64,000 nucleotides of DNA from a virus: positions 1-64,000 of the IMG/VR virus record IMGVR_UViG_3300044612_001963; one strand, written 5' to 3'. The notes under the pieces were generated by a model. That model ran no database searches, was not told where the DNA came from, and worked only from the letters and a program-made list of their open reading frames with translations. The position numbers were made by a program, and so were the translations under genes. This document shows positions 6,000 through 57,375 of this stretch, one piece after another; positions within the stretch are counted from its first letter, which is position 1; each line of letters begins with the position of its first letter.

Positions 6000-6025
6000 G
6001 GTGGTGTGTGGTGGTGGCTCCCCGT

Positions 6026-23385: not shown

Positions 23386-23445
23386 ACGCCCCAACCACAC
23401 ACCATCGGAAACCTGACCCAGCAACACCCGCCAGGCCTCTCAACG

Positions 23446-24599: not shown

Positions 24600-26054
24600 G
24601 TGCAGCTCGATCTCGATCATCCATCCAACGATCCACGGCTGCCCAGCTACAGGCACCCAACCCTGCGCGAGCTGCAGGAAGACCTGGACCGCGCTTACGA
24701 CGCCTTCCACATGCTCCGTGGCGTCAAATCCAAGTACCTCCCGCAAGAACCAGCAGAACCGGATGATGCCTATCAATCCCGGCTGAACTGCTCCGTCTTC
24801 GCTGATTTCTTCCGTAGTTCCATCGTTGCCTTTACCGGCATCCTCTCCAAGTTCTCGCTGTCCAATCCACCACCGTCCATGGCCGATGCCGTGGACAACA
24901 TCGACCTAGAAGGCAACAGCATATCGGTATGGCTAGAAAAAGCCGACACCCTCATGCTCCGTGATGGTGGTGTGCTCCTGGCAGTGGACATGCCCGCCGG
25001 TCGGCCGATGAACGCTGCCGAAGAGATCGCCCAAGGCCGCAGGCCGTATCTCCTCATGCACCCTCGCGCCAAGGTGCTCAACTGGATCGCCGCCCTTGAC
25101 AATGGCGTCGAAACACTGCAGCAGGTTGGCATCCTGCTGCTGCAGGAAGAACCCGACCCGCCGTTTGGTGTTCGCACCGTTCCCCGCTACAAGGTCATCA
25201 CCCGCGAAGGCTGGACGGTCTACCGCATCGATCGTGATGCCACCAACGAGCTCACCGCCACGATCGAATCCGAGGGCCTGTATCAGACCCCATCCGGCCA
25301 GCCGCTACCCTTCCCGCCCGTGGTCTGGTATCCCGCCGAACATGCCGGGTTTGGCCAGGGTGAGCTGCCGCTCCGGCAGGTGGTGGAGCACAGCATTGAG
25401 CATTTCCAGCAACGCTCAGACCTGCGCAACAAGACCCGCCGCTGCGCGATGCCAGTCCCCGTCGCGATCGGCCGCACGCCACCTGCACCCGGCGAGGCAC
25501 GCAAGCCGCTGGTGATCGGGCCCAACAGCATCGTTGATCTCGATGCTGGCGGTTCGTTCTCCTTCGCAGAACCATCAGCCAGCAGCCTGGCGGAACAGCG
25601 GGAGCAGATCAAGGAGGTTGAGAAGCTCATCTCCCGCCAGACACTCGGGTTCCTTTACGGCGATCCGGGCAGCACGAAAACCGCCACGCAGGCGGGCCTT
25701 GAAGGTGCGCAAACTGAGGCGACCATCGCCAGCATCGCTGAGCGCAAGACATCCGCCGTGCAATCGCTCATGCAGATCTGGTGCGCGTTCACCGGTGAGC
25801 AGCTCCCCGAAGATGCCGGCATCGCCATGAGCGCGTCGCTGTTTGAGCGGCCACTGGAAGCAACGGACATCAAACAACTCCAAGACCTAACCGGTGGTGA
25901 GCAGCTCGTCTCAGTGCAGTCCGCAATCGAGGAACTGCAACGCGCCGGCCGGCTCAAGGCCACAACCAGCGTCGAGGACGAAATGGACCGCATCCGTGCA
26001 GAACGTCCAGCACCTGCCGATGACGTGGGCCTGAACGACCTGGGCGAGCTGTAA
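24600..26054 (+). CDS. portal protein (DUF4055 family)
   Basis: 484 residues from GTG 24600. LRELQEDLDRAYDAFHMLRGVKSKYLPQ, SRLNCSVFADFFRSSIVAFTGILSKF and the later PVVWYPAEHAGF...VEHSIEHFQQRSDLRNK region match DUF4055-type portals. It forms the dodecameric DNA gate that docks the terminase. A GGAAAACT element at 24569-24576 lies 23 bases before the GTG, matching the spacing elsewhere and supporting this start. Confidence 0.85.
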   Translation: MQLDLDHPSNDPRLPSYRHPTLRELQEDLDRAYDAFHMLRGVKSKYLPQEPAEPDDAYQSRLNCSVFADFFRSSIVAFTGILSKFSLSNPPPSMADAVDNIDLEGNSISVWLEKADTLMLRDGGVLLAVDMPAGRPMNAAEEIAQGRRPYLLMHPRAKVLNWIAALDNGVETLQQVGILLLQEEPDPPFGVRTVPRYKVITREGWTVYRIDRDATNELTATIESEGLYQTPSGQPLPFPPVVWYPAEHAGFGQGELPLRQVVEHSIEHFQQRSDLRNKTRRCAMPVPVAIGRTPPAPGEARKPLVIGPNSIVDLDAGGSFSFAEPSASSLAEQREQIKEVEKLISRQTLGFLYGDPGSTKTATQAGLEGAQTEATIASIAERKTSAVQSLMQIWCAFTGEQLPEDAGIAMSASLFERPLEATDIKQLQDLTGGEQLVSVQSAIEELQRAGRLKATTSVEDEMDRIRAERPAPADDVGLNDLGEL

Positions 26055-26296: not shown

Positions 26297-27385
26297 ATGG
26301 CAACACCAGGGCCACGGCAGCTCACCGGCATCGCTGATGACTACGCCAAAACCCTGGCGGAACTAGAGCGGCGCAGCGTTAACAATACGCTCGCGCTGCT
26401 CCGTCGTTCGCTTGACGGCACGCTCACCACACTTCGCCGGTCGTATAACGCCTACCTGAGCGACATAGGCGGTATCACAACCGACCCTGAAGGGCAGGTC
26501 ACTCGCCGGCCCGGTGCATATACCACCGCTGAATCGACAGCGAAGTTCAGGGCGATCCTGCAGGATGCCCAGCAGTTCATGTCACCCACTGAGGTGGCGT
26601 TCTGGCGTGAGGGCTACGAACGCGACCTACGCGCTGCTACCCAGCTCGGAGGCGACCTGGCAACAGAGCTGATCCGTATGGTCAGCCAGCCGGATTCGAT
26701 GGTGCCATTCGCTGGTGCTGATCCCTTGGCTGTACGCGCTGCAGCGTTGAATGCCTCAGCGTTTATCCAGAACGAAACGGCCCGGTTTCGTGCGCAGATG
26801 GTGGAGATCGTGGGTGAAGGCATCGCCCGTGGCTGGGGCCCCACTCGCCTGGAACGCCAGATTCGCGAAGCACTACGCGGCGCCCGTGACCCGAAACGGC
26901 TCAACCAACGGCTAGGGCTTGAGCAGCGTGCTGCGTTGATCGCCAGGTCGGAGCTGGCTACTGCATACGTGAAAGGCAGCCTGCAGCGTGCCCGTGAAAG
27001 GGGCGATGGTTACGTGAGGGTGTTGGCATCGAATGATGAGCGGACCTGCCCGACGTGTGCCAGCAGGAACGGGAGGATCTATCCGGTGGATCGGGCGCCA
27101 ATTCCGTTTCATCCGCGCTGCCGATGCGTTGCTATCCCCGTTCCCAACGAGGCTGTCGAGGAATCCGATCCCGAAACGCAGGATGTTTTGCTGGATTCCA
27201 AACGCTGGCGAGCTGAACATGAGCGTGGCGTTGAGGCTTACGCCAAAGCGCGAGAGATCAGCATTGAAAAAGCCCGCGCCGAACTGGCACGGGCATTGCG
27301 TACACCTACGGCATCAGAGCGACGGCTGTACCCGAAAGGTCAGCCGTCGCTAGATGAATCGGTGCCGTTGTTCAGAACGGAGTAA
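26297..27385 (+). CDS. minor head protein, Mu F/SPP1 gp7-like
   Basis: 362 residues. The helical N-terminal two-thirds leads to the MuF core (LERQIREALRG, ARSELATAYVKGSLQRARERG, ASNDERTCPTCASRNGRIYPVD, FHPRCRCVAIPV) with a four-Cys/His cluster typical of this family. Located after the portal, it is a capsid-internal morphogenesis protein. The 3' end overlaps the convergent cyAbrB gene by 14 bases. Confidence 0.88.
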   Translation: MATPGPRQLTGIADDYAKTLAELERRSVNNTLALLRRSLDGTLTTLRRSYNAYLSDIGGITTDPEGQVTRRPGAYTTAESTAKFRAILQDAQQFMSPTEVAFWREGYERDLRAATQLGGDLATELIRMVSQPDSMVPFAGADPLAVRAAALNASAFIQNETARFRAQMVEIVGEGIARGWGPTRLERQIREALRGARDPKRLNQRLGLEQRAALIARSELATAYVKGSLQRARERGDGYVRVLASNDERTCPTCASRNGRIYPVDRAPIPFHPRCRCVAIPVPNEAVEESDPETQDVLLDSKRWRAEHERGVEAYAKAREISIEKARAELARALRTPTASERRLYPKGQPSLDESVPLFRTE

Positions 27386-28121: not shown

Positions 28122-28160
28122 GCGGGAGGTTCACCACCACACACCACCTGCCCGCCAGCC

Positions 28161-28397
28161 ATGGCCCGTCCCTCCATCACCACCCAGATCGCCGCTCAAG
28201 CGGCTGTCTGCACCCACCTGGGCACGGATCTCACCATGGCCAGGGTTAACGGCCTCAACATCCGCTGGCGCGGAATGGAGTCTGGTGACCACGTGGTCAC
28301 CGTTGGCGCCAAGCGCGTCTATCGGGTTGATCTGGTGATCAACAGCGTGCAGCTTCGCGTGGGCAACATCCCCGACTGCTGCAGGGGCGTTTTCTGA
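28161..28397 (+). CDS. hypothetical small protein
   Basis: 78 residues; a helix (TTQIAAQAAVCTHL) then beta strands (NGLNIRWRG, GDHVVTVGAKRVYRVDLVINSVQL). First gene behind the 28093 promoter and upstream of the TM-HTH and Tad2-like genes. No family recognised. Confidence 0.6.
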   Translation: MARPSITTQIAAQAAVCTHLGTDLTMARVNGLNIRWRGMESGDHVVTVGAKRVYRVDLVINSVQLRVGNIPDCCRGVF

Positions 28398-28412
28398 CCC
28401 CCACCAAGGCTC

Positions 28413-28429
28413 GCCGGAGCCCATCCGGC
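28413..28429 (+). other. post-stop GC hairpin
   Basis: GCCGGA-GCCCA-TCCGGC, 6-bp stem, 15 bases after the stop at 28397. A looser copy (CCGGA...TCCGG, 28655-28675) follows the next gene. Confidence 0.5.
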
Positions 28430-28455
28430 ACCCATCCAAACCACCACACACCACC

Positions 28456-28641
28456 ATGACCACCACCACCATTGCCCTGCTGATCGCCCTGCTGCTGCTG
28501 CCCATCCTGTTCCTGCTCTGGGCCACGGAATCCCGCCAGCAACGCGCCCGCCGCTGGCGGCGCGACGGCTGGACACAGCAACGCATCGCTGATCGACTGG
28601 GGTGCTCGCGCACCACGGTTCGGCGGTTGTTGGCTGCTTGA
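28456..28641 (+). CDS. membrane-anchored HTH micro-protein
   Basis: 61 residues. Residues 5-22 are a strongly hydrophobic helix (TIALLIALLLLPILFLLW), then a basic connector (RQQRARRWRR) and a resolvase-type helix-turn-helix (GWTQQRIADRLGCSRTTVRRLL, quoted in parts: GWTQQRIADRL, SRTTVRRLL). A DNA-binding domain tethered to the membrane in so short a chain is unusual. It precedes the Tad2-like gene. Confidence 0.7.
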   Translation: MTTTTIALLIALLLLPILFLLWATESRQQRARRWRRDGWTQQRIADRLGCSRTTVRRLLAA

Positions 28642-28696
28642 CCGTCACGGCCCGCCGGAGCCGTGTCCAATCCGGTAACCACTCGCTTCCTTTTCT

Positions 28697-28930
28697 GTGG
28701 AACAAAACGACTCATTCGGCCTCGTTCTCGCCGACTTCAGCGACAACTTCCGCCACCGCTGGTCCCGCCGAGGCTGGAACGGCCCCGGTCAGTTCATCGA
28801 GCTGCAAGTCCCCGACGAGCACAGCAAGATGACGCTCCCCTACATCTACATCACCACCGTGAAAGGTGATCGGGTGCCTTGGCTTGCCAGCCAGACTGAT
28901 CTCCTCGCCCAAGACTGGTACATCGTCTGA
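28697..28930 (+). CDS. Tad2-like anti-Thoeris protein (DUF2829 family)
   Basis: 77 residues from GTG 28697. The C-terminal VPWLASQTDLLAQDW is the family signature and the RRGWNGPGQFIELQ segment matches the GWNG strand of DUF2829 proteins. Phage Tad2 proteins of this family sequester the gcADPR signal of Thoeris defence, blocking abortive infection. The pocket residues cannot be verified without structure, so anti-Thoeris activity is an inference from family membership. It lies in an accessory island of small genes between head genes. Confidence 0.75.
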   Translation: MEQNDSFGLVLADFSDNFRHRWSRRGWNGPGQFIELQVPDEHSKMTLPYIYITTVKGDRVPWLASQTDLLAQDWYIV

Positions 28931-28985
28931 GGAGTACGGCCCGCCGGGTCTATCCCCGCCAGCACACACCACACCCTGACCAACC

Positions 28986-29489
28986 ATGACCGACCAGCAC
29001 CGCGCCACGCCTGAGCAATGGGCCGAGACAGAGAAGTGGGCTCAGGGAGACGAACTGGACAGCTCCTGCATCCTCGAACTCCGCGCCCGCATCGAGGCCC
29101 TAGAGGCCGCCCAGCTAGATCAAGCCGAGAGCCACAGGTTCTGCACTGATGCCATCGTGCGTCGGGTGGAGGCGCTGGAGGCGTCGGCAGGTATTGGCAA
29201 GCCTGTTGCGCCAGTCAATACTTCAGGCCCTGCTGGGACGCTGGTGGAGAGGGTTGAGGAGGCGATTATGAACGAAGACTGGCTGAACAACGGACTTGAT
29301 GAATCCGTATGCAGCGACGATGACCCCAACTACAGATATACCAGTGCAGCGTGCAACAGGGGTCAATCGTTTCATACTCTCCAAGCTCGCGCCGCGATTC
29401 GTGAAGTAATAGCAGCCGCTAAAAAGGCTGATTTTATTCATGCGAGCACCCTCGTCCATTGGCTTGAGCAGGAGGCCGACCGTGGCTGA
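28986..29489 (+). CDS. hypothetical coiled-coil protein
   Basis: 167 residues: acidic N-terminus, a coiled-coil-like helix (ELRARIEALEAAQLDQAESH and VRRVEALEA), then a more variable C-terminal half with two Cys. Similar small proteins are common in cyanobacterial phages and prophages. Function unknown. Confidence 0.6.
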   Translation: MTDQHRATPEQWAETEKWAQGDELDSSCILELRARIEALEAAQLDQAESHRFCTDAIVRRVEALEASAGIGKPVAPVNTSGPAGTLVERVEEAIMNEDWLNNGLDESVCSDDDPNYRYTSAACNRGQSFHTLQARAAIREVIAAAKKADFIHASTLVHWLEQEADRG

Positions 29490-29673
29490 CCTCTCCCCAG
29501 CGGCTCAGGCGGTGTTGGATGCCTTGAAAATGGAAGGCTTAACAGGTCCAGAGCGGTTCTGGGCTCGCGCTCATGCCGCCGCCGCCCTCCGCGCTGCAGC
29601 AGATCACCTTGGCAGCTGCAACGCATCGACGGAACTCCTCGCCATCGCCACCGAACTGGAGGTCACCCCATGA
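29482..29673 (+). CDS. hypothetical helical small protein
   Basis: 63 residues from GTG 29482, overlapping the previous stop by 8 bases. Helical, Ala-rich (SPAAQAVLDALKME, ARAHAAAALRAAADHL). The stop overlaps the next ATG. No family recognised. Confidence 0.55.
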   Translation: MADLSPAAQAVLDALKMEGLTGPERFWARAHAAAALRAAADHLGSCNASTELLAIATELEVTP

Positions 29674-29930
29674 CCGACCCCTGCAGCTGGATCACCTTCG
29701 ATGAGTGGGCCATCGACGTGACCTGCGCAAAGATAAGCGACTCCATTGCCTTCGTGCCGATCTGCGGCGATGAAGTGGTCTGGGGCCTGACCATGATCCA
29801 AGACCGAGCACCGGGCCCGCTGGTGGGCGTAGTCTCTCAGGACGGCATGGCTGACGTTGAGCAGTGGGTGGCCAGCAATCCCGACTGGAAGATCCGATTC
29901 AGCAAGGTGGAGGATCTCTGTGGCACCTGA
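29670..29930 (+). CDS. hypothetical protein
   Basis: 86 residues, acidic and Trp-containing (WITFDEWAIDVTCAKI, DEVVWGLTMIQD, VEQWVASNPDWKIRF), with an alternating strand/helix pattern. 4-base overlap upstream. Function unknown. Confidence 0.55.
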   Translation: MTDPCSWITFDEWAIDVTCAKISDSIAFVPICGDEVVWGLTMIQDRAPGPLVGVVSQDGMADVEQWVASNPDWKIRFSKVEDLCGT

Positions 29931-56376: not shown

Positions 56377-57375
56377 ATGGCCAACGTGAACGTCCACAGG
56401 GGCAGGCTGTACCTGCTGGCCAAGGTGCCGCGTCGTGATGGCTCGCCAGGACTGCAGCAGTGCAGGATCGCACTAAAGCTCGATGACACACCGGTAAATC
56501 GCCGTACCGCCGCAAAGCAGCTGCAGACCCTGGAACGGCAGCTGGCGACGGGGACGTTCGAGTGGGCCTACTGGCAGGACCGCGAGGGCGGCATCACCTG
56601 GCGGGAGGCCATCGCCAAGCTCCACCGCGCCAGGGTGACGCTGGGGCGCACCAGCGAGAGCACCTGGGAGATCAACTACATGGGCCGGCTCCGGCAGATC
56701 CCATCAGGCGCGGTGGTGACCACCGACTCCATCGCAGCGGCACTGCAGCGTTACGACCGCTCGACGTGCAGCTACAAAGAACTCTGGTATCTGCTGCGGC
56801 ACCTGGCCAAGCTGGTGGGCGTGGAGTTCCCCGAGCTGCCGGTGCCCACCTATGGCCAGGCCCAGCTGGTGGCGGTGCCCACCGATGCGGAAATTATCGC
56901 CTGGGTCGAGGCGGCCGGTGCGGCGAGCTGGTATTTCGGGATGATGGCCACCTATGGGCTTAGGCCGCATGAGGTGGAGCGCTCAACGCTGATCGAGCGG
57001 GATTACTGCCAGGTGCAGGAGGGCACCAAGACGGGATTCAGGACGGTGGTGCCGCTACCCCGCGAATGGGTAGAGCGGTTTCGGCTGCACGATCGACGGC
57101 TGCGGCCTGGTGGCGTGCCGGGCGAGAGGCCTGATGCCGTGTCGAAGTGGCTGCACAAGGAACTACGCCGGCTGGGGCTGCCGTGGAGGCCTTACTCGCT
57201 GCGCCATGCCTACGCGGGGAGGCTGTGGCGGCAGGGCGGCTCACGGCTGGACGTGTACACGGCGGCCAGGTTGATGGGGCACACGGCGAACCAGCACGCC
57301 AAGACGTACCGTGCGCACATTCAGCCGCATGCCGTGGCGGAGGCGGCCGAGAGGGCGTTAGGGGGTGGTCCATAA
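56377..57375 (+). CDS. int: tyrosine site-specific recombinase (integrase)
   Basis: 332 residues. N-terminal beta-rich arm-binding region (VNVHRGRLYLLAKVPRRDG), core-binding helices (about 70-160), and a catalytic domain with Arg196 (ATYGLRPHE), Arg276 (YSLRHAYA), His301 (MGHTANQH) and Tyr311 (AKTYRAH). At the HxxR box the first residue is Tyr273 rather than His, a variation seen in some phage integrases. It integrates and, with the excisionase-like partner at 57518, excises the prophage. Confidence 0.9.
   Translation: MANVNVHRGRLYLLAKVPRRDGSPGLQQCRIALKLDDTPVNRRTAAKQLQTLERQLATGTFEWAYWQDREGGITWREAIAKLHRARVTLGRTSESTWEINYMGRLRQIPSGAVVTTDSIAAALQRYDRSTCSYKELWYLLRHLAKLVGVEFPELPVPTYGQAQLVAVPTDAEIIAWVEAAGAASWYFGMMATYGLRPHEVERSTLIERDYCQVQEGTKTGFRTVVPLPREWVERFRLHDRRLRPGGVPGERPDAVSKWLHKELRRLGLPWRPYSLRHAYAGRLWRQGGSRLDVYTAARLMGHTANQHAKTYRAHIQPHAVAEAAERALGGGP

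Follow-up and report, generated by a model that had tools for sequence, protein, structure and literature searches.

The window, by which we mean the whole 64,000-nucleotide stretch of DNA analyzed here, from a virus of small freshwater cyanobacteria, carries an accessory gene for a short-form Tad2-family protein that is genuine and conserved. The best explanation for this gene, to which we assign a probability of roughly 0.6, is that it encodes an accessory counter-defense sponge for an ADP-ribose (ADPR)-type TIR signal.

A conserved short-form Tad2-like gene

28697..28930, + strand: short-form Tad2-like gene (PF11195), 77 aa, GTG start

The encoded 77-residue protein, MEQNDSFGLVLADFSDNFRHRWSRRGWNGPGQFIELQVPDEHSKMTLPYIYITTVKGDRVPWLASQTDLLAQDWYIV, has RVPWLASQTDLLAQDWYIV as its C-terminal end and carries SRRGWNGPGQF further upstream in the chain. 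A sequence-only reading had placed this open reading frame in DUF2829, the Tad2 family, from its C-terminal sequence and a GWNG segment, and both are indeed present in it. The assignment to PF11195 (Tad2-like, the newer name of DUF2829) was borne out by the profile, the fold, and the conservation of pocket segments, and we regard it as solid. The hmmscan match had an E-value of 1.2e-18 and a score of 67.8 bits against a curated cut-off of 25, and it was the single PF11195 match in the entire 64,418-base virus record. Sequence searches of the PDB gave significant matches to Tad2/AcrIIA7 chains only. No PADLOC model matched the 77-aa Tad2-like protein, and the tad2 DNA region had no near match among named phages.

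Because PF11195 includes AcrIIA7, a named inhibitor of type II CRISPR-Cas that the window protein matches significantly (9kzr, 8kbi) in a relation of sequence only, the protein might be considered an anti-CRISPR. This is highly improbable. HgmTad2 and AcrIIA7 are the same protein, and because it was solved with 1',2'-cADPR and cGG, the family is better accounted for by a signal sponge than by an anti-CRISPR.

Comparison with homologs indicates that the tad2 open reading frame is under strong purifying selection and is not a chance frame. Its start is conserved as MEQN(D/E)SF in three relatives (L002, L003, and L005), which also share its length. When the window gene was compared with relatives at 78-88% protein identity, third codon positions accounted for 36/48, 39/54, and 44/66 of the differences, and dN/dS was approximately 0.03-0.05 in the first two comparisons, with dS saturated. 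Thirteen columns were invariant among 59 homologs (R24, W27, N28, P39, M45, P48, Y49, P61, W62, Q66, D68, L70, and D73).

The window protein has a Tad2 fold with conserved pocket segments

The sequence-only reading had proposed superposing an AlphaFold model on Tad2 structures. We built a single-chain AlphaFold2 model from the 59-homolog alignment (mean pLDDT 89.6, pTM 0.78), and it matched Tad2/AcrIIA7 structures only. Foldseek against the PDB returned 24 matches at E<=1e-4, all of them Tad2/AcrIIA7, with query-normalized TM scores of 0.74-0.81. The same family was the only one present at E<=0.001, and the next match had an E-value of 0.64. The matches include ligand-bound structures of SPO1 Tad2 (8SMF, with 1''-3' gcADPR, and 8SMG, with gcADPR) and of ModTad2 (9EIB, with hisADPR).

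In known Tad2 proteins, the gcADPR pocket is formed by the beta1-beta2 loop, the beta3-beta4 loop, and beta4 of one protomer, together with the beta1-beta2 loop, the beta4-alpha3 loop, and alpha3 of a second protomer (reviewed in PMC12043709). Two segments of the window protein correspond to walls of this pocket:

28772..28783, + strand: GWNG, residues 26-29, in the beta1-beta2 loop; in solved Tad2, it forms one wall of the pocket that holds the ligand between protomers
28877..28900, + strand: PWLASQTD, residues 61-68, a loop and the start of the second helix; this is the pocket's other wall

Both pocket-wall segments, as defined from PMC12043709, rank among the most conserved of the window protein. 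Across the 59 homologs, W27 and N28 of GWNG are invariant and G26 and G29 are at least 90% conserved; in PWLASQTD, P61, W62, Q66, and D68 are invariant and S65 and T67 are at least 90% conserved. The GWNG residues are common to the SPO1, Spt, and Hgm Tad2 proteins, and the W, S, Q, T, and D of PWLASQTD are also found in SPO1 Tad2. By alignment, then, both predicted pocket segments (GWNG and W..SQTD) are conserved in the window protein.

Helix alpha-2 and an insertion present in longer Tad2s are missing from the short form

28811..28840, + strand: PDEHSKMTLP, residues 39-48, a short linker where longer Tad2s have the beta2-beta5 insertion plus helix alpha-2

All solved Tad2 proteins are longer forms. 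The distance between the two signature tryptophans is 35 residues in the window protein and in 65 of its 80 nearest relatives, versus 48 in SPO1 Tad2 and ModTad2, 60 in SptTad2, and 66 in HgmTad2 (distances for solved proteins were derived from PDB-search alignments and match coordinates). In the AlphaFold model, the linker of approximately 10 residues, running from beta2 to the next strand, contains no helix, and helix alpha-2, which together with beta2 makes the dimer contacts of the homotetramer in known Tad2, is absent from the monomer.

SPO1 Tad2 (Gp34.65; 8SME/8SMF/8SMG), which binds 1''-3' and 1''-2' gcADPR, resembles the window protein in fold (TM ~0.8), in the GWNG loop, and in a W..SQTD.LA.DW motif, but it has 89-90 residues to the 77 of the window protein, which also lacks the helix after beta2. 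ModTad2, from a Myroides odoratus prophage (9EIB/8V3E), binds His-ADPR and counters type II Thoeris; it shares the fold and motifs, matches the family profile at E 4.5e-16, and has a middle section 13 residues longer than that of the window protein. HgmTad2/AcrIIA7 (8KBI-8KBM, 9KZR) and SptTad2 (8WJD) are alike in fold and identical to the window protein in WLASQTD, and SptTad2 even retains the DE-SK-LP pattern of the linker; however, both carry the long insertion reported to bind cyclic dinucleotides, which the window protein lacks. The closest counterparts of the short form that we describe are PF11195 proteins of the Mycobacterium phages MalagasyRose and Curiosium, which are 65-78% identical to the window protein over the matched part, infect actinobacterial hosts, and are annotated only as hypothetical or DUF2829. 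The Curiosium protein has the same short spacing as the window protein.

These differences bear on the likely ligand. The binding site for cyclic dinucleotides is a separate insertion, located between beta2 and beta5, and the Tad2 dimer is built via helix alpha-2 and beta2 (PMC12043709). SPO1 Tad2, whose insertion is shorter, does not bind 3'3'-cGAMP (PMC11722364). Because the long beta2-beta5 insertion of the HgmTad2/SptTad2 type is missing, the short form is expected to lack the cyclic dinucleotide site. A pocket of the gcADPR/His-ADPR type may be kept. Since the missing stretch includes helix alpha-2, which is dimer-building in SPO1 Tad2, the model suggests that the tetramer assembly and pocket of the short form may differ from those of longer Tad2s. 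No tested short-form Tad2 was found in the literature that we searched, which excluded the primary Tad2 papers.

The absence of helix alpha-2 and the insertion might also mean that the window protein descends from a Tad2 but no longer binds a ligand. We give this very little credence: purifying selection on the gene is strong, pocket segments are invariant in the 59 homologs, and the short form is widely distributed.

tad2 is an accessory insertion in a siphophage-like cyanophage

24600..26054, + strand: portal protein (phrog_145, 2.2e-74), conserved left flank
26297..27385, + strand: MuF-like minor head protein, conserved left flank
28129..29907, + strand: variable accessory spot between the conserved portal/MuF genes (to 28128) and conserved genes from 29908
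28456..28641, + strand: 61-aa protein upstream of tad2; hydrophobic stretch at its N-terminus, helix-turn-helix at its C-terminus
28649..28980, + strand: tad2 insertion, missing in relatives L088, L089, L091, L096, and L103
28986..29489, + strand: 167-aa protein downstream of tad2, with no family match
56377..57375, + strand: integrase (phrog_1, 7e-12)

Genes for TerL, portal, MuF, tape measure, major head protein, and integrase were found in the phage, which is probably temperate because an integrase is present. Its gene relationships support a siphophage-like cyanophage, in agreement with the sequence-only reading. The nearest named portals belong to the Synechococcus/Prochlorococcus phages S-CRES3 and S-CBS2 (both Synechococcus phages) and cyanophage PSS2, and the major head protein is also nearest to that of PSS2. 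The sole genome match for the portal was a contig of a Cyanobium metagenome-assembled genome (MAG), at 57%, on which the TerL is 69% identical.

Relatives L088, L089, L091, and L103 are 95-97% identical to the window up to approximately 28128. Three of them (L088, L103, and L091) match again at 93-97% from 29.9-30.3 kb, while L089 and others stop earlier, and between the conserved flanks pieces are missing or diverged in the relatives. Near-identical relatives lack exactly 28649-28980, as does the more distant L096, and PF11195 was not found anywhere in the records of 20 relatives without tad2, several of which are fragments. Thus, tad2 is an accessory insertion with clean presence/absence at a variable site that has head genes on one side and tail genes on the other, as the proposal of an accessory island had anticipated. 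It is dispensable, because near-identical phages do without it. Relatives of tad2 also occupy other phage contexts, such as the copy in L002, which comes after a different type of head-tail connector gene. We considered exchange at CGGCCCGCCGG boundary repeats and rejected it, since these were not above chance.

The neighbors at 28161, 28456, and 28986 had been put forward as further anti-defense candidates, a suggestion that found no backing: no anti-defense homology was detected for them by Pfam, PHROGs, or relatives. The 28456-28641 protein is retained in relatives without tad2. In close relatives, the N-terminal third of the 28986-29489 protein is conserved and its C-terminal part is swapped or diverged. 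Pfam and PHROGs gave no convincing family match for the proteins starting at 28161, 28986, 29440, 29670, and 29857, and few relatives were found for those at 28161, 28986, and 29670. These neighbors are accessory genes and not evident anti-defense genes. As a separate observation, ACCACACACCACC occurs four times in the window with at most one mismatch (28136 and 28443 on the + strand, 6000-6012 on the - strand, and a near-copy at 23394), where 0.18 copies were expected and none of 100 shuffles reached four; several of these sites lie directly upstream of start codons.

Some short-form genes lie beside ribonucleotide reductase (H5; PF02867 neighbor), thyX, terminase, portal, or capsid genes, which would fit a phage-internal job unrelated to defense, such as one in head assembly or in nucleotide metabolism. 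We consider such a job very unlikely, given that the number of neighbors sharing a family never exceeds 4-5 among the 126 scanned and that the gene is missing from near-identical phages.

Short-form tad2 genes are linked to Acb2/Tad1-hairpin genes

Pfam and PHROG scans of the 126 neighbors of relatives revealed no single recurring partner besides a lead to the Acb2/Tad1 hairpin family (PF24729), which was matched by 2 of these neighbors. PF24729 scored over its cut-off in 15 of the 50 records with a short-form tad2. In nine of the 50 (L005, 8001-8445; L006, 7944-8413; L009, L010, L012, L026, L030, L053, and L057), the PF24729 gene lies less than 400 bp (20-325 bp) from the tad2-like gene, compared with 0.42 records expected under random placement (Poisson P ~7e-10, a value that is indicative only, given possible relatedness among some records). 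In L006 and L005, the end of one frame overlaps the start of the other. One PF24729 partner weakly matches the solved 'Acb2 homolog 43' (E 0.005), and the other had no PDB match by sequence. A PF24729 search of the window found no Acb2/Tad1-hairpin gene.

This linkage supports the view that the short form acts as a sponge or in counter-defense, whichever ligand it binds. Short-form tad2 and Acb2/Tad1-hairpin genes are candidate paired sponge cassettes in some relatives.

TIR-domain genes occur in the host family, but canonical Thoeris effectors were not found there

To place the gene in its host setting, we surveyed Cyanobiaceae, to which GTDB assigns the Cyanobium MAG. ThsB_TIR (PF08937) was found in 17 of 300 genomes, with strong matches (E<=2e-13) in 6. 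STALD effectors were found in 0 of 251 and ThsA_Macro effectors in 0 of 300 Cyanobiaceae genomes, counts to be read with MAG incompleteness in mind, and the control genomes also gave no match to either. Across the whole phylum, STALD was found in 3 of 292 and ThsA_Macro in 5 of 292 genomes; the models therefore work, since they yield matches elsewhere in the phylum.

Four strong ThsB genes adjoin a small protein, giving the following ThsB-TIR then small-protein loci in Cyanobiaceae:

L119:1486-2348
L116:1363-2357
L117:1115-1809
L131:947-1962

The small proteins of L116, L119, and L131, the three that were scanned, match 8xMP (PF24838, E ~1e-32), a family of octameric membrane proteins that we did not trace in the literature searched. 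In L119, a protein weakly like MmeI lies on the other side of ThsB. From these arrangements, ThsB-TIR and 8xMP could form an alternative TIR effector pair without canonical ThsA.

The sequence-only reading had named the window protein a Tad2-like anti-Thoeris protein. Its Tad2-family part stands; its anti-Thoeris part needs softening to a possibility, as the short form lacks the beta2-beta5 insertion and helix alpha-2 and the searches of host-family genomes found scattered ThsB-TIR genes and no canonical effectors. That Thoeris in the host selects for the window gene is plausible.

An alternative that we judge possible, though clearly less probable than an ADPR-type sponge, is that the short form sequesters another signal, which could be a cyclic nucleotide, from CBASS or otherwise, or a molecule that the TIR protein of a different system makes. 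Besides gcADPR, longer Tad2s also bind cyclic dinucleotides, and ligands vary among members (PMC12043709; PMC13299392). The Acb2/Tad1-hairpin linkage fits a general anti-nucleotide role, and in the host family no canonical Thoeris effectors were found, yet ThsB-TIR and 8xMP pair there. On the other hand, the cyclic dinucleotide-binding insertion is missing, SPO1 Tad2, which has a shorter one, does not bind 3'3'-cGAMP, and the GWNG and WLASQTD segments match those of gcADPR/His-ADPR binders.

Proposed function and implications

For the preferred explanation, a sponge for an ADPR-type TIR signal, we infer the oligomer, the ligand, and the host system that is countered. The phage would make the short Tad2-family protein, which would assemble into an oligomer in which the GWNG loop, together with the WLASQTD loop and helix, would form binding pockets between protomers. 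This sponge would bind, without degrading it, a small nucleotide alarm molecule from a TIR-domain (Thoeris-like) system of the host, and with the signal sequestered the effector would not be switched on. Without the beta2-beta5 insertion, the bound signal would be of the ADP-ribose type (gcADPR or His-ADPR class) and not a cyclic dinucleotide.

A more specific and improbable proposal is that short Tad2s are a distinct sponge class for the signal of a ThsB-TIR and 8xMP (TIR-plus-membrane-channel) defense of picocyanobacteria, often in a two-gene cassette with an Acb2/Tad1-hairpin sponge. If true, that TIR-plus-membrane-channel system would be an undescribed defense system.

With this gene, freshwater cyanophages can be counted among the carriers of a signal-sponge family, and the form that is commonest among the nearest relatives of the window protein is shorter than every solved Tad2. 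Near-identical phages with and without tad2 provide a natural test pair, and the Acb2/Tad1-hairpin linkage offers a way to find paired sponge cassettes.
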